A DNA stretch of 64,000 nucleotides from a bacterium HR29 (GTDB lineage: Bacteria > Chloroflexota > Dehalococcoidia > Tepidiformales > Tepidiformaceae): positions 62,001 through 126,000 of the forward strand of contig BEIF01000001.1 in assembly GCA_002898215.1 (NCBI GenBank), given 5' to 3'. Below the pieces are notes generated by a model. That model was not told the origin of the DNA and made no database searches. It saw only the letters and a list, made by a program, of their open reading frames with translations. A program made the translations under genes and the position numbers. Below, piece by piece: positions 16,356 through 25,063 of this stretch (position 1 is the stretch's first letter; each line of letters starts with the position of its first letter).

Positions 16356-17564
16356 CTACCGGAAACTGATGTAGAGCTCGGGGTCGACGGGTGCGCCGTT
16401 GTAGCGGATTTCGAAGTGCAGGTGCTCACCCGTCGTGTAGCCGGTAAGCCCCGAGACCCCGATGACCGTTCCCTGGGTCACGTACTGACCGACCGAGACA
16501 TCGATTCGGCCGAGGTGCGCGTACAGCGTCGACCACCCTTCCCCGCAGTCGATGACCACGTGGTAGCCGTAGCTGTACGTCCACCACTCGGTGCGGACCA
16601 CTGTCCCGCTGCACGAGGCGAAGATCGGGGAGTTTGGCATCCCCCAGAGGTCGAGGTCGATCCCCTCGTGGATTCGCCCAGCGCCCCGCGGTGTTCCGAA
16701 GGGATCGCTCACGCCGCGCCAGGCTGCCAGCGGCGGGGCGAAGCGGCCGCCTCCACTTGGCGGCGGGGTGAAGTTCCCTCCGCCACCGCCCGTGCTGGGC
16801 CGCGACGGCGGGGCGGGCGGCGGCGGTGGCGGCGGTTTCCTCGTCGCGCCCGGCAAGAGCACGTACCGACCGGGCTCCAGCGACGACGGGTCCGTGATGT
16901 TGTTCGCCCGGAAGGACACCACTGCATCGACGGTGACGTTGTCGTACTGGGCGACGATCGAGGCGACCGTTTCTCCGTAGCCGACTTTGTGCAGGATCCC
17001 GTCTCGTAGCGGCACGAGGATCTCCTGCCCCACCACGATGAGGTCAGGCGCGTGAATCGTCGGGTTGTTGTCGAGGATCGTCCCGACGCTCACCCCGTAG
17101 GCAGCGGCGATACTGCTGACGGTGTCGCCCGGTCGAGCGACGTGCAGCACGTACGGCTTCGAGGGGTCCAGCACCTCGGCCAGCGACGTTCCGTTCATCC
17201 CCGACGCCGCCGTCGCCGCTGACACGCCCGCGGAAATCGCCGAACTGGGGGAGATACCGCTCAGCGCCCGGACCTGCGCCGCCGTCGCCGGCCGCGTTAC
17301 GAGGGAGAGCGAGGGCAGCGTCTGGTGGCTTGGTCCGCCTCTCAGGTAATTGCTGGCATCGGTCGCTCGGTACACGCCCATCGCGCCCGACAGTGAAAAC
17401 GCCGGCACGCCCGCCGGCGGCCGCGCCGACGTCGTCGAAGGGTAGCGTGCCGCGAAGCCCACCGCAGCCAAGGCAATCGCCACAACCAGGAGATGGAGCA
17501 TCACCCGGCGGTGCCGCTGCGCGTGCGCGTGGGAGCGCGCCCGTGTGCCGTTACCGTTTCCCAT
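16356..17564 (-). CDS. LysM-domain M23 metallopeptidase (peptidoglycan hydrolase)
   Basis: A 402-residue exported wall enzyme. A positively charged N-terminus and a membrane segment (about 21-39) anchor or export it. Two LysM domains follow (about 138-187, VLHVARPGDTVSSIAAAYGVS, and 189-238, ILHKVGYGETVASIVAQYD). A Pro/Gly-rich linker (about 240-280) leads to the M23 domain, with zinc ligands in GRIHEGIDLDL and HLHFEIRYNG and the YAHL motif. It probably cleaves peptidoglycan cross-bridges or activates other lytic enzymes. Its stop lies within the last unit of the 72-bp repeat. No clear promoter was identified in the 190 bp upstream. Confidence 0.92.
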   Translation of the reverse strand: MGNGNGTRARSHAHAQRHRRVMLHLLVVAIALAAVGFAARYPSTTSARPPAGVPAFSLSGAMGVYRATDASNYLRGGPSHQTLPSLSLVTRPATAAQVRALSGISPSSAISAGVSAATAASGMNGTSLAEVLDPSKPYVLHVARPGDTVSSIAAAYGVSVGTILDNNPTIHAPDLIVVGQEILVPLRDGILHKVGYGETVASIVAQYDNVTVDAVVSFRANNITDPSSLEPGRYVLLPGATRKPPPPPPPAPPSRPSTGGGGGNFTPPPSGGGRFAPPLAAWRGVSDPFGTPRGAGRIHEGIDLDLWGMPNSPIFASCSGTVVRTEWWTYSYGYHVVIDCGEGWSTLYAHLGRIDVSVGQYVTQGTVIGVSGLTGYTTGEHLHFEIRYNGAPVDPELYISFR

Positions 17565-20614: not shown

Positions 20615-20734
20615 GTGGATTTTTCGAACCTGCCGCATGACTACGCCGAGACGCTCGAGCTCGTCTTCGTCTTCGTCACCATCTTCCTCTCCCTCGGCCT
20701 GATGGTCGCCTTCGGCCGCTGGTGGCAGCAGTAG
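20615..20734 (+). CDS. 39-residue single-helix membrane peptide heading the bc-complex operon
   Basis: A short frame with GTG start preceded by GGGGAGG about 8 nt upstream. The product has an acidic/polar N-terminus (DFSNLPHDYAETLE) and one membrane helix (LVFVFVTIFLSLGLMVAFG), and ends RWWQQ. Its stop overlaps the GGAGG that serves cytochrome b, so it is the first gene of the operon. The size, single helix and position resemble the small accessory subunits (PetG/L/N type) of b6f complexes, but no sequence family is recognised. That role is inference. Confidence 0.75.
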   Translation: MDFSNLPHDYAETLELVFVFVTIFLSLGLMVAFGRWWQQ

Positions 20735-20743
20735 GAGGTTCCC

Positions 20744-21496
20744 GTGGCAGTCGAGCAGCCCGCCCGCCCCACGCTCGCCGACAAGATCTACGACAAGCTG
20801 TTCCATAACTACATCTGGAAGTCGATCTTCCGCACGGGGTACCCGAATACCCCGCGCAATCAGATGCTCATTGTTGCCACCAACGTCTTCCTCCACCTTC
20901 ACCCGACCCGGATCCACCGTACGCACGTCAAGATCACGCACACGTACTGCCTAGGCGGGCTGTCGTTTTTCATGTTCCTCGGGCTGACGGTCACGGGCAT
21001 CCTCCTCATGTTCTACTACGTGCCCAGCGTCGACCGCGCCTACCTGGACATCCAGAACATTCAGACGAACGTCCAGTTCGGCCAGCTCATGCGGAACATG
21101 CACCGGTGGATGGCCCACGCCATGGTCATCCTCGTGTTCCTGCACATGATGCGCGTCTTCTACACGGGCGCGTACAAGCCGCCGCGGGAGTTCAACTGGG
21201 TTGTCGGCGTCATCCTCCTCGTCCTGACCTTCCTCCTCAGCTTCACCGGCTACCTCTTGCCGTGGGACCAGCTCGCCTTCTGGGCCATCACCGTCGGCAC
21301 CAACATCGCCGGTTCGGCGCCGATCCTCGGCCCGAAGACGCGCTTCTGGCTCCTGGGCGGCTTCGAAGTCGGTCAGGAATCCCTCATCCGCTTCTACACG
21401 CTGCACGTCATCGGGCTGCCGCTCCTCGCCGCCATCTTCATGGCCGTCCACTTCTGGCGGATTCGCCGTGACGGCGGCTTGGCGCGGCCCCTGTAA
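20744..21496 (+). CDS. Cytochrome b6-like subunit (N-terminal half of split cytochrome b)
   Basis: A 250-residue, four-helix membrane protein of a quinol:electron-acceptor oxidoreductase. Heme ligands are His120/His221 and His134/His236. The 15-residue step between His221 and His236 is the b6f-type spacing. Cys69 in HTYCLGG matches the Cys that binds the extra heme (c_n) in b6f and Bacillus-type complexes. The Qo-side motif [13 protein letters not shown] is conserved. The GTG start has GGAGG 6 nt upstream. The C-terminal half is a separate gene (21520), as in b6f. Confidence 0.92.
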
Positions 21497-21519: not shown

Positions 21520-22410
21520 ATGGCGACCGCTGTCGTTGCTCGCCCCGTAGCTCGGCCCCAGCCGCGTGCCCGCGACGAGGAGGTCCTCGTCTGGCCGGAC
21601 CTGGTGTTCATCGAGTTCATCTCGGCGCTCGTCTTCACCCTGGCCCTCTTCGCGCTCTCCCTGTTGGTGAATGCGCCGCTGCTCGACCAGGCGAACGCGG
21701 ACGTCACCCCCAACCCTTCCAAGGCGCCGTGGTACCTCCTCAACCTGCAGGAGCTCCTCCTGCACATGCAGCCGGCGCTGGCAGGCGTCATCGTTCCCAC
21801 CGTGTGGCTCGTCATCATGGCCGCGTTCCCTTACTTCGACCAGGACAACGAGGGGCAGGGCGTTTGGTTCGGAACGGAGAACTCCGTCCGCCTGACGGTC
21901 GTTTCGGCGATCGTCGCCGTCGTCGGAACGTGGCTCCTCATCCTCTGGGACACCGGCAAGATCGCCATGGCCATGAACGACTGGTTCGGCATCTCGGGCG
22001 GGCGGACCTTCGCCTTCCTCGAGAACGTGCGCGCCCTCCAGTCGCAGCTTCCGTGGCCCGAATGGAGCCATCGCATCCCGTACCTGTGGTTCGACCTGAA
22101 GATCCTCGACGAGGGGTACACGGGGCTCGGCGCCACGAGCTTCCATTACCTCGACCTGCCGGGCTTCCTCGTCGAGCAGGCCATCCCAATCGCCGCGATG
22201 GTCGGCCTTCCCAGCTTGCTCATCTATGCGCTGTGGAAGATCGGCTGGGTCAACACCCGCCGTGACGCCATCATCGTCCTCTTCACCGGCTTCGTGGCAG
22301 TGTTCGGCGTGCTCACCGTAACCGGGACGGCCTTCCGGGGCGCTGGGCAGGAGCTCGTCTGGCCCTGGCAGCTCGACGTCCAGGAAGGCATCCCGGGCGA
22401 AGGTCATTAG
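21520..22410 (+). CDS. Cytochrome b subunit IV-like protein (C-terminal half)
   Basis: A 296-residue membrane protein supplying the C-terminal helices of the split cytochrome b. After a polar N-terminus, a membrane helix (about 20-45) precedes SKAPWYLLNLQELLLHM. This is the quinol-site loop in the KAPWY form seen in Bacillus-type complexes instead of the PEWY of classical bc1. Further helices lie at about 80-100, 120-145, 220-240 and 250-272. It is about 130 residues longer than plant subunit IV; the extra segment (about 150-215) lies between helices and is unexplained. It lies 23 nt after cytochrome b in the same operon. Confidence 0.88.
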   Translation: MATAVVARPVARPQPRARDEEVLVWPDLVFIEFISALVFTLALFALSLLVNAPLLDQANADVTPNPSKAPWYLLNLQELLLHMQPALAGVIVPTVWLVIMAAFPYFDQDNEGQGVWFGTENSVRLTVVSAIVAVVGTWLLILWDTGKIAMAMNDWFGISGGRTFAFLENVRALQSQLPWPEWSHRIPYLWFDLKILDEGYTGLGATSFHYLDLPGFLVEQAIPIAAMVGLPSLLIYALWKIGWVNTRRDAIIVLFTGFVAVFGVLTVTGTAFRGAGQELVWPWQLDVQEGIPGEGH

Positions 22411-22423
22411 GAGGGGAGTGGAG

Positions 22424-23041
22424 ATGGCGGAAGCTGCAGCAGGCCGCGCCCGCAGTGCGCGCATCGAACAGGCCCGTCAGGCGGAGGCTCGTCGCATCGC
22501 CCGACGGTCGTTCCTCCGCGTAAGCTTCTTCGCTGGGCTGATCCTCTCGCTCGGTTCGTCCATCGCTGGGCTGTTGGCCTTCTTCAACCTCCGCAATCCG
22601 ACAGGGTTCGGCGCGCCCGTCACCGTGCCGCCTTCGCTCATCCCGCCCCCGGGCGCCGACCCCGTCCGCATCACCGACGGCAAGTTCTGGCTGGTGAATC
22701 TCGAAGGGTCGCAGGGCGATGTCCTTGGCGTCGGCGGGACGGGTGGCCTGCTGGCGCTGTACTGGAAGTGTCCGCATCTCGGCTGCGTCGTCCCCTGGCG
22801 CGCCGACTTCAATGGAGCCATCGTCGGTTACCCGGGCATCATCGGGTGGTTCCGCTGCCCGTGCCACGGTTCGACCTACTCACGGGCGGGCGTTCGCGTC
22901 TTCGGTCCCGCACCACGCTCGATGGACACGTTCCTCATCGAAGTCAACAACGACGGCTCCATCACGGTGAACACGCGGGCCATCACCAGCGGTGCGGCCG
23001 ACCCACCCAATCCGCTCCGGGCCGTCCCCTACAACGCCTAG
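22424..23041 (+). CDS. Rieske iron-sulfur protein
   Basis: A 205-residue subunit that takes electrons from quinol to a 2Fe-2S cluster outside the membrane. An N-terminal anchor follows a twin-arginine-like ARRSFLRVSFF, suggesting Tat insertion of the folded cluster protein. Cluster boxes are CPHLGC and CPCHGS, with both Cys/His pairs and the disulfide cysteines present. ATG 22424 is chosen because GAGGGGAG lies 5 nt before it; a GTG 6 nt upstream overlaps that site. It lies 13 nt after subunit IV. Confidence 0.95.
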   Translation: MAEAAAGRARSARIEQARQAEARRIARRSFLRVSFFAGLILSLGSSIAGLLAFFNLRNPTGFGAPVTVPPSLIPPPGADPVRITDGKFWLVNLEGSQGDVLGVGGTGGLLALYWKCPHLGCVVPWRADFNGAIVGYPGIIGWFRCPCHGSTYSRAGVRVFGPAPRSMDTFLIEVNNDGSITVNTRAITSGAADPPNPLRAVPYNA

Positions 23042-23054
23042 TCCTGGAGGCGCG

Positions 23055-24647
23055 GTGAACACGCAGAAGCAGATCTTCCTGATGATCGTCCTGAGCTTCA
23101 TGCTCGTCGGCGCCTGCGCGGGCTACGCGGCGTTCGACCTGCCGATCCGCGCCGAGACCCAGCGCGACTACCAGTTCGAGGAGTCGGTGCGGCGCGGGGC
23201 ACTCCTCTACGCGAACAACTGCCGGATTTGCCACGGAAACCAAGGGGAGGGGTTCGTCGGGCCAGCGCTCAACCGCCCCGAGCTGAAGGACCAGGACCCG
23301 CTCGTCCTCCGCGAGAATCGCGCTTGGCTCACCCACACGATCCAGTGTGGGCGTGCGGGGACCCTCATGCCGGCGTGGCTGAAGGAGTACGGAGGCTCCC
23401 TCAACGAGCGCCAGATCGAGCACCTCGTGAACCTCATCACGGCGCCGGTGGAGCCCGGCTACGTGGACCGGTTCGGTGAACCCACCAGCAAGGGGTGGGT
23501 GGAGGCCCTGGAGTTCGCGAAGAACTTGAACCGAGAGCTGTCCGCCGTCGTTTCGGGCGACACGCTCGTATCCATCGCGAAGCAGCACCGCATCGGCGTC
23601 GCCGAGCTCGCCGAGCTGAACGGCATCCCCTTCGACCGGGTGGGCGAGTTCCTGCCCAAGGGCACGGTCGTCAAGCTCCCTCCCAACGCTGCCGAGCCGA
23701 AGGGCGCGACCTATAAGGTTCGGACCGAGCGCGAGTCGATCGAGAAGATCGCCGAGACGCAGTTCGTAGGGGCGGCGATCATCGCAGACCTCAACGGGAT
23801 CCCGTACCGAATCGATCGGAAGCAGGGCGAGATGCAGCTGTTCGACTCGAACGGGAACCCCGTGCCTGGCCTCTTCCCCGGCGACGAGTTGGAGCTGCCT
23901 GACGGAGCGGTGTACGTCACCTCCGCCGGCGACACCGTGGAGGCGATTGCACAACGGCACAACGTATCGGCAAGCGAAATCCTTCGCCTCAACCGGGAGA
24001 GCCTCGCCGGCAAGTCCGAGACGGACCCGCTCGATGCTGAACTCGTCCTACAGCTTCCGAAGGTGCAGCGGTACGTGGTCCAGGGCCAGTCGCTCGCCGA
24101 TGTCGCCCAAGGCTTCGGCAATGTGACGGCACAGAGCCTTGCGCAGGCGAACGGCATCGACGACCCGAACGCCATCGTTGCTATCGGCACGCAGCTGAAG
24201 CTGCCCGAGGACGCGTACGGCACCGCCCCGCCCGACAGCCGCAACCCGGGTACCGCCTGCGTGCGCTACGCGGTGCCCGAAAGCGTGTACCAGCAGCTAC
24301 CCGGAGTCGGGACGCCCCAGCCTGCCCCCGAGCCTCCGGCCGAGTTCGCGTCGGACGTCGAAATCCGGGCGACCAATCGCACGCCCGGGTACGAGTGGAC
24401 CGTCATCGCCGACGGCCAGGAGCAAACGCCTAACGAAGGCAAAGTCAAGATCCGCCCGGGCACCGAGGTGCGCTTCGTCAACGAGAGCGGCCTCCATACG
24501 GTGACGGTGAACGGCAACAAGATAGCGGAGGACATCGCTGCACCGGGCGACACCCGCACCTACGTGTTCGAGAACACGGGCGATTTCAAGCTCACCTGCG
24601 ACTACCACCCGGCGATGCTCGCCTGGATCTTCGTCCGAAGCGAATGA
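23055..24647 (+). CDS. Cytochrome c - 4x LysM - cupredoxin fusion protein
   Basis: A 530-residue exported redox protein closing the bc operon. A membrane anchor (about 5-30) precedes a monoheme cytochrome c domain with CRICH (Cys56, Cys59, His60) and a probable Met ligand at 105 (GTLMPAW). Four LysM-like repeats follow (about 162-210, 218-282, 285-335, 338-385; for example VVSGDTLVSIAKQHRIGVAEL and VTSAGDTVEAIAQRHNVSASEI). After a Pro-rich linker, a C-terminal cupredoxin domain (about 434-530) has type 1 copper ligands His481, Cys515, His518 and Met521 in amicyanin-like C-x2-H-x2-M spacing. LysM usually binds peptidoglycan, so this could be a wall-tethered electron carrier from Rieske to a terminal acceptor. 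GTG 23055 was chosen because GGAGG precedes it; the upstream extension overlaps the Rieske gene. Confidence 0.93.
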   Translation: MNTQKQIFLMIVLSFMLVGACAGYAAFDLPIRAETQRDYQFEESVRRGALLYANNCRICHGNQGEGFVGPALNRPELKDQDPLVLRENRAWLTHTIQCGRAGTLMPAWLKEYGGSLNERQIEHLVNLITAPVEPGYVDRFGEPTSKGWVEALEFAKNLNRELSAVVSGDTLVSIAKQHRIGVAELAELNGIPFDRVGEFLPKGTVVKLPPNAAEPKGATYKVRTERESIEKIAETQFVGAAIIADLNGIPYRIDRKQGEMQLFDSNGNPVPGLFPGDELELPDGAVYVTSAGDTVEAIAQRHNVSASEILRLNRESLAGKSETDPLDAELVLQLPKVQRYVVQGQSLADVAQGFGNVTAQSLAQANGIDDPNAIVAIGTQLKLPEDAYGTAPPDSRNPGTACVRYAVPESVYQQLPGVGTPQPAPEPPAEFASDVEIRATNRTPGYEWTVIADGQEQTPNEGKVKIRPGTEVRFVNESGLHTVTVNGNKIAEDIAAPGDTRTYVFENTGDFKLTCDYHPAMLAWIFVRSE

Positions 24648-24774: not shown

Positions 24775-24894
24775 ATGCCTGCACAAACCGGGAAACGTTA
24801 CGTCTGCCCCAAGTGCGGCTCCGAGGTCATCGTGACCAAGGGCGGCGACGGGGAGCTGATGTGCGGCGACACTCCGCTCGAACTGAAGAAATAG
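24775..24894 (+). CDS. 39-residue desulforedoxin-like zinc/iron-ribbon peptide
   Basis: A tiny protein starting MPAQTGKRYVCPKCGSE. A CxxC pair (CPKC) and a third Cys (MCGD) resemble the desulforedoxin/rubredoxin-like N-terminal domain, GKRYxCxxCGxExxVTKGG. That domain normally has a CC pair at the end; here only one Cys remains. It could bind Zn or Fe as a dimer. ATG 24775 is preferred over an upstream ATG because the conserved start is here. The following gene encodes a related peptide without this Cys pattern. Confidence 0.7.
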   Translation: MPAQTGKRYVCPKCGSEVIVTKGGDGELMCGDTPLELKK

Positions 24895-24919
24895 CCGTTT
24901 CCTCGGAGGGAGAGTGACG

Positions 24920-25063
24920 ATGGCTATCCAGCTCGGCAAGCGGTACAAGGACGAGCAGACCGGCATCGAGGTCCTCGTCATCAAGCCGGGAAACTGCGAC
25001 CTCAAGGTCGACGGCCGGCCCATGGAGCTGATGCAGCCGAAGGTGTTGCCCTCGGCCGACTGA
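24920..25063 (+). CDS. 47-residue paralogue of the ribbon peptide lacking the Cys motif
   Basis: A short protein, MAIQLGKRYKDEQTGIEVLV, with GGAGGGAGAG 5-10 nt before its ATG. It shares GKRY near the N-terminus and a GRPMELM tail with the desulforedoxin-like domain, but the CxxC is replaced by Lys/Asp/Gln and a single Cys (GNCD) remains. It lies 25 nt after its neighbour. It looks like a non-metal-binding paralogue; the function is unknown. Confidence 0.7.
   Translation: MAIQLGKRYKDEQTGIEVLVIKPGNCDLKVDGRPMELMQPKVLPSAD

Follow-up and report, generated by a model that had tools for sequence, protein, structure and literature searches.

A predicted b6f-like complex of Tepidiformaceae has a c-type subunit with LysM domains between heme c and a cupredoxin

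Results

A fusion gene closes a b6f-like operon

The window, the whole stretch of 64,000 nucleotides that was analysed, comes from a genome of the Tepidiformaceae (Chloroflexota, Dehalococcoidia) of 2.34 Mb in 4 contigs, estimated to be 97% complete. The operon, the domains and ligands, their conservation in the family, the LysM-free orthologues and the cysteine pairing described below were computed. The operon consists of the following genes.

20615..20734, + strand: 39-aa single-TM ORF with a GTG start, directly upstream of cytochrome b
20744..21496, + strand: cytochrome b6-type subunit, 250 aa (Cytochrome_B, 3.8e-49)
21520..22410, + strand: subunit IV-like C-terminal half of cytochrome b, 296 aa (Cytochrom_B_C, 0.00065)
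22418..23041, + strand: Rieske iron-sulfur subunit (Rieske, 5.2e-6; b6-f PetC model, 7.9e-14; CPHLGC and CPCHGSTY motifs)
23055..24647, + strand: fusion protein gene, a single open frame with a GTG start, 530 aa

The fusion gene closes the operon, in the order cytochrome b6, subunit IV, Rieske and fusion protein, confirming the place that a sequence-only reading of this DNA had given it. The gene set is b6f-like, a c-type subunit being encoded alongside cytochrome b6, subunit IV and the Rieske protein. Subunit IV scored 0.4 bits below the Pfam cut-off (Cytochrom_B_C, 20.3 versus 20.7) and was conserved in all 18 extended relatives. At 18 of 18 extended loci the fusion gene had the genes for cytochrome b, subunit IV and the Rieske protein beside it, and the operon genes were present also in other classes of Chloroflexota. 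The 39-aa ORF preceded cytochrome b at nearly all Dehalococcoidia operon loci (24-74% identity by tblastn) and gave no match in Pfam; its product probably belongs to the b/Rieske complex as a small subunit. The gene order and profile matches suggest that the four operon products form one b6f-like complex, of which the fusion protein would be the c-type subunit.

Directly downstream of the fusion gene lies a gene for a desulforedoxin-like protein of 39 aa (24775-24894, + strand; Desulfoferrod_N, 1e-6). The next ORF, of 49 aa (24914-25063), starts in a similar way. A gene encoding LysM and an M23 peptidase (16356-17564, - strand) is also located near the operon and is evidence of peptidoglycan metabolism.

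Domains and ligands of the fusion protein

From the N terminus, the fusion protein contains a TM anchor, a cytochrome c domain, four LysM domains, a Cys402-containing linker and a cupredoxin domain. Its features are as follows.

23067..23135, + strand: N-terminal membrane anchor, residues 5-27 (sequence and AF2 helix)
23220..23234, + strand: heme c site CRICH, residues 56-60; C56, C59 and H60 invariant in the family alignment
23346..23348, + strand: Cys98, heme-domain half of a putative disulfide; invariant in the family, co-occurring with the linker Cys
23367..23369, + strand: Met105, predicted axial heme ligand; at least 90% conserved in alignment A1, invariant in A2
23544..23681, + strand: LysM1, residues 164-209 (Pfam, 7.7e-9)
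23706..23900, + strand: LysM2, residues 218-282; divergent and the longest of the four (Pfam, 0.0056; family LysM profile, 1e-5; AF2 fold)
23913..24059, + strand: LysM3, residues 287-335 (Pfam, 8.5e-7; 4uz3 fit)
24072..24206, + strand: LysM4, residues 340-384 (Pfam, 8.9e-8)
24258..24260, + strand: Cys402, linker half of the putative disulfide; invariant in the family, matching the position of the pre-cupredoxin CGQ motif in relatives
24351..24638, + strand: type 1 cupredoxin, residues 433-528, with His481, Cys515, His518 and Met521 (fold match, conserved ligands)

That two genes had been misread as one was ruled out by the single stop-free frame, found likewise in relatives, and chance or mis-assembly was ruled out by the recurrence of the fusion in independent assemblies and in the complete T. 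flava chromosome.

The membrane-anchored cytochrome c of the sequence-only reading was borne out by the TM helix, the CRICH site, Met105 and two Pfam matches. The heme domain has the marks of a class I cytochrome c (CXXCH, distal Met and a profile match), and the whole protein matched Cytochrome_CBB3 (5.9e-8; 33.4 bits, cut-off 27) and Cytochrom_C (1.2e-5; 27 bits, cut-off 21.3). No match was found to the Pfam models of cytochrome c1 and cytochrome f at E values up to 1. The fold assignment of this domain rests on sequence profiles, the AF2 pLDDT of the cytochrome part being low (43-75 over residues 51-120). The AF2 models contain neither heme nor copper, and we infer from the sequence that the protein carries both. 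Within the N-terminal TM helix is a lipobox-like Cys21 that is conserved across the aligned family members. In the family member L020, the position of the predicted axial heme Met is occupied by Leu (GTLLPAW).

The four LysM-like repeats proposed earlier were recovered by both profile and structure. LysM (PF01476) matched the whole protein at 1.3e-26 (92.7 bits), well above the cut-off of 20.9, so that the assignment withstood the profile search. When the segments were searched singly, LysM1, LysM3 and LysM4 scored above the Pfam cut-off and LysM2 below it (17.1 versus 20.9 bits). LysM2, which lacks the GDT motif, was detected at 1e-5 by a LysM profile trained on Tepidiformaceae copies. When modelled with AlphaFold2 (pLDDT 96.1, pTM 0.90), the array contained the strand-helix-helix-strand fold four times and was predicted to be rigid. 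The best structural matches to this model were solved LysM domains, with LysM3 superimposing on 4uz3_C at 1.3 A over 47 of 47 residues (Z 6.5). In LysM1, G168, L171, I174, A175 and H178 were invariant in the family alignment, and D169 and T170 were conserved in at least 90% of sequences.

The cupredoxin and its complete set of type 1 ligands had been numbered correctly, and the domain proved to have a plastocyanin-like fold. Among 28 aligned family members, H481, C515 and H518 were invariant and M521 was conserved in at least 90%. Residues 433-528 matched plastocyanin 1bxu with a VIA Z of 11.8 (2.0 A over 85 residues) and amicyanins with a Z of 9.9, and a sequence search matched the domain to the cupredoxin domain of a solved copper enzyme (3.5e-6). 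The cupredoxin scored under the Pfam cut-offs (Cupredoxin_1, 12.4-16.7 versus 27 bits; Copper-bind, 16.2 versus 21.2), which were passed by the LysM-free orthologues L132, L120 and L034. The NCBIfam equivalogs of plastocyanin and amicyanin, TIGR02656 and TIGR02657, gave no match to the fusion protein at E values up to 1. In one family member (L012/L046; C-terminal CDFHPEQ), Gln substitutes for the axial Met ligand of copper; Gln is the axial copper ligand in stellacyanin-type sites.

Among the orthologues compared, LysM is seen only in Tepidiformaceae

The fusion protein was matched in 35 of 37 Tepidiformaceae genomes, in most of them at full length and in some on broken contigs; the two genomes without a match, G005 and G034, are both incomplete. 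Named matches included Tepidiforma flava, Tepidiforma sp. KatS3mg064, a Tepidiformaceae chromosome and other Dehalococcoidia assemblies. By the trained profile, the 31 distinct complete family sequences contained three to seven LysM domains, mostly five or six, compared with four in the window protein. The LysM insertion is thus family-wide and stable across Tepidiformaceae.

We found that Dehalococcoidia orthologues at the same operon position have a TM anchor, a cytochrome c domain, an optional spacer and a cupredoxin domain. Across the class the spacer was absent, made of beta repeats or, in Tepidiformaceae only, made of LysM. The cytochrome c and the cupredoxin of L132 are joined by a short linker, L034 and L125 contain two cupredoxins and no LysM, and L114, L115, L116, L120-L123 and others have beta repeats followed by a cupredoxin. 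L037 and L133 have a coiled coil and no copper domain, and L038-L042 and L129 carry a second heme in the C-terminal part. Elsewhere in Chloroflexota the C-terminal part was a second or third heme or a cupredoxin (L140, L141, L144, L146, L147). No LysM was found in the c-type subunit outside Tepidiformaceae among the class orthologues (20 loci, L034-L042 and the named loci) and 16 loci from other Chloroflexota; this absence is provisional. The sequence-only reading had called for a search for the same fusion in other Chloroflexota, where the combination of heme c and cupredoxin recurs and the LysM part does not.

The orthologues L114 and L115, of about 690 aa, were considered as LysM carriers and ruled out, since their repeats are of the beta type and weakly resemble phage tail proteins. 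A spacer repeat of the form VERG..GT.A..H..G was seen in L114, L115, L083-L087 and L120-L123, with weak phage-tail-like similarity (phrog_1101, 4.5e-8 for L120).

When the cytochrome b, subunit IV and Rieske sequences were concatenated for a tree, L034 and L125 neighboured the LysM clade, and the copper clade included some of the heme-bearing forms; this is a FastTree tree with four family members kept and a LysM-node support of 0.45, and its branching is indicative. The two-heme orthologues L129, L086, L088 and L090 keep the cysteine pair described below, and L129, L086 and L090 were placed within the cupredoxin clade of this tree, which suggests that a heme domain may have replaced the copper domain in these three.

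Since the same-position orthologues share cytochrome c and cupredoxin and vary in the spacer, the core appears to be a c-type subunit with a fused copper carrier, to which LysM was added later. We conclude, from the sequences compared, that the subunit of heme c and cupredoxin is probably the older form and that LysM was inserted afterwards in Tepidiformaceae, most simply once. A simple rule that LysM follows peptidoglycan was ruled out by the peptidoglycan-making Dehalococcoidia G037, G052, G056 and G058, whose subunit lacks LysM. These relatives indicate that LysM is an addition that the presence of peptidoglycan does not demand.

A cysteine pair brackets the spacer

Cys98 and Cys402 were either both present or both absent in each protein, and they bracketed every type of spacer. 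Scoring gave 60 sequences with both cysteines, 15 with neither and 5 discordant rows, these being counts of related and so not independent sequences. Two of the discordant rows, L085 and L118, were scoring slips in which both cysteines are present and the heme-domain one had been counted with the linker; the others were L022 (masked by the copper pattern), L030 (truncated contig) and L042 (out-of-frame tail). In proteins outside the family, a CGR cysteine at the first site was found together with a second-site cysteine in a CGQ (or CW) context, and multi-heme proteins of other groups had neither. The pair also occurs in other Chloroflexota lineages in a different sequence context (L140, L146, L147). 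For an oxidising compartment, the simplest reading of this pattern suggests a Cys98-Cys402 disulfide. Because the pair brackets the spacer, the copper domain may stay near the heme, with the LysM array looped out.

Electron carriers, oxidases and cell wall

The fusion protein was the only match to PF13442 and to PF00034 in the genome, which also encodes a cytochrome c assembly protein, a single NrfD-type protein and two aa3-type heme-copper oxidases with a CuA-type subunit II. The CuA of these two oxidases is the likely electron acceptor. As the sole class I cytochrome c matched occurs together with two CuA oxidases, quinol electrons very likely cross the heme of the fusion protein and would then reach CuA through the fused copper or directly through a free cupredoxin. 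At least three small separate cupredoxins are encoded in the genome and could be the true carriers, which leaves the earlier suggestion that the fusion replaces plastocyanin unproven. The source genome also encodes a nitrous oxide reductase of the Sec-dependent type (TIGR04246, 3.4e-240) that has cupredoxins as neighbours. Its locus, L108 (11198-16299), about 5 kb from a CuA oxidase, includes genes for a NosL-like protein and for a cupredoxin.

MurB was found in the source genome. Peptidoglycan has been shown experimentally in Tepidiforma, cultured members of which have sacculi, are sensitive to beta-lactams and have a layer of about 20 nm in a periplasm of 40 nm (PMC10284905). MurB and the peptidoglycan of Tepidiforma together make binding of the LysM domains to the wall plausible. 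Use of siderite was reported for T. bonchosmolovskayae, and for T. flava and T. thermophila only chemoorganotrophic oxic growth, with alternative acceptors not known (PMC10284905).

Discussion

The explanation that we favour, and consider probable, is that the fusion protein is a heme-copper subunit of a b6f-like complex, stapled by a disulfide and bound to peptidoglycan through a LysM loop. The heme c domain and its plastocyanin-like acceptor would be one chain, the c-type subunit of a b6/subunit IV/Rieske quinol oxidoreductase, and electrons would run from quinol through Rieske and heme c to the type 1 copper of the same chain and on to the CuA of the two aa3-type oxidases. With a Cys98-Cys402 disulfide in place, the copper domain would be held next to the heme domain, and anything between the two would form a loop. 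In Tepidiformaceae this loop would be a rigid array, usually of four to six LysM domains, that binds peptidoglycan glycan and thereby fixes the complex, or the head of the complex, to the wall. We infer the electron route, the disulfide and the glycan binding. Tentatively, and with a good deal of doubt, one may go further and picture complex III moored to peptidoglycan via LysM; respiratory complexes would then occupy set positions in the lattice of the wall, and the delivery of electrons would depend on the state of the wall.

Alternatively, the LysM array could be a mere spacer, a stiff arm or filler that has no functional glycan binding, comparable to the beta repeats and coiled coils of the relatives. 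A spacer role would accommodate the variable LysM number, the missing GDT motif of LysM2, the predicted rigidity of the array and the unrelated repeats, coiled coil or nothing that other lineages put at this position. However, the residue conservation of LysM1 exceeds what a spacer needs, and LysM is seen in this place only in one family, Tepidiformaceae, which contains peptidoglycan; we therefore regard a spacer as unlikely.

LysM proteins are commonly localised to the cell wall, and the clade-specific insertion, stable across Tepidiformaceae, would also suit a LysM block that serves assembly or sensing, positioning the complex where the wall grows or coupling respiration to the state of the wall, with no part in electron transfer. 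We give this explanation little credence; by sequence, however, it is not separable from plain anchoring.

The sequence-only reading had proposed an electron wire through the peptidoglycan, with the cupredoxin at the far end of the LysM array and its electron partner located within the wall or outside it, as might apply to the Fe(II) use reported for T. bonchosmolovskayae. The position of the array between heme and copper and the report that one Tepidiforma species uses siderite (PMC10284905) fit a wire, but T. flava and T. thermophila are chemoorganotrophs that grow only under oxic conditions (PMC10284905), the cysteine pair brackets the array, and no second class I cytochrome c was found in the genome (PF13442, PF00034) to extend it. 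Relatives at the same position lack LysM, so electron transfer does not require residence in the wall, and the oxidases are membrane-bound CuA enzymes, so an acceptor beyond the wall is not needed. Direct tunnelling, as known from biological electron transfer, fails over the distance of four LysM modules, and the gap between heme and copper would exceed its range; a wire is thus very improbable. What stands of the earlier picture is a quinol-oxidising b/Rieske complex whose c-type subunit has its own copper domain, in a cell that contains peptidoglycan, together with LysM modules upheld by profile and fold.

We compared this predicted heme-copper subunit with known systems. It shares with cytochrome b6f and bc1-type complexes a split cytochrome b (b6 and subunit IV), a Rieske protein, a membrane-anchored c-type heme and the passage of electrons to a high-potential carrier. 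Those complexes combine cytochrome f or c1 with soluble plastocyanin or cytochrome c, whereas here the carrier is fused and LysM is inserted between, and Pfam assigns the heme domain to neither cytochrome f nor c1. The Chloroflexota orthologues (L034, L036, L120, L132, L141, L144; L129, L134) share the operon and the N-terminal cytochrome c and, in many cases, the cysteine pair and the C-terminal cupredoxin, but they lack LysM, their spacer being absent, beta repeats or a coiled coil, and some have a second or third heme in place of copper. With plastocyanin and amicyanin the cupredoxin shares the fold and the His-Cys-His-Met set, and with amicyanin also the short C-x2-H-x2-M loop; those two are free carriers, whereas the fused cupredoxin is not free and has no NCBIfam match to either. 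Wall-binding LysM proteins (the T. thermophilus NlpC/P60 protein, 4uz2/4uz3, and the LysM-M23 peptidase at 16356-17564) have the same fold in the same tandem arrangement, but the fusion protein has no hydrolase and holds its modules between two redox domains.

A redox protein joined to a layer of the monoderm envelope is known from the S-layer-fused multiheme cytochromes of ANME archaea (PMC9012536), and one lodged in such an envelope from the wall-associated cytochromes of Thermincola, as far as they are described where cited in PMC4137172. By these accounts, those proteins are multiheme, lie in the S-layer or at the cell surface and are proposed to act in extracellular transfer, whereas the fusion protein would have one heme and one copper and be a respiratory subunit. 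The sequence-only reading knew of no protein with this domain order, and we likewise found no description of a LysM-cytochrome c-cupredoxin fusion in the open-access literature, including that on multiheme electron transfer and on Chloroflexota Rieske complexes.

The orthologue series, with a second heme, a cupredoxin, a double cupredoxin, repeats or LysM, suggests that the last step of the quinol oxidoreductase has been rebuilt through domain swaps. In the usual picture, respiratory complexes drift within the membrane and are connected by loose carriers. In Tepidiformaceae, a whole family with cultured species, the carrier appears to be fused to the complex and is accompanied by LysM modules of the wall-binding kind. 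If this is true, a respiratory complex would be tethered directly to peptidoglycan in this family, in a form open to experiment.
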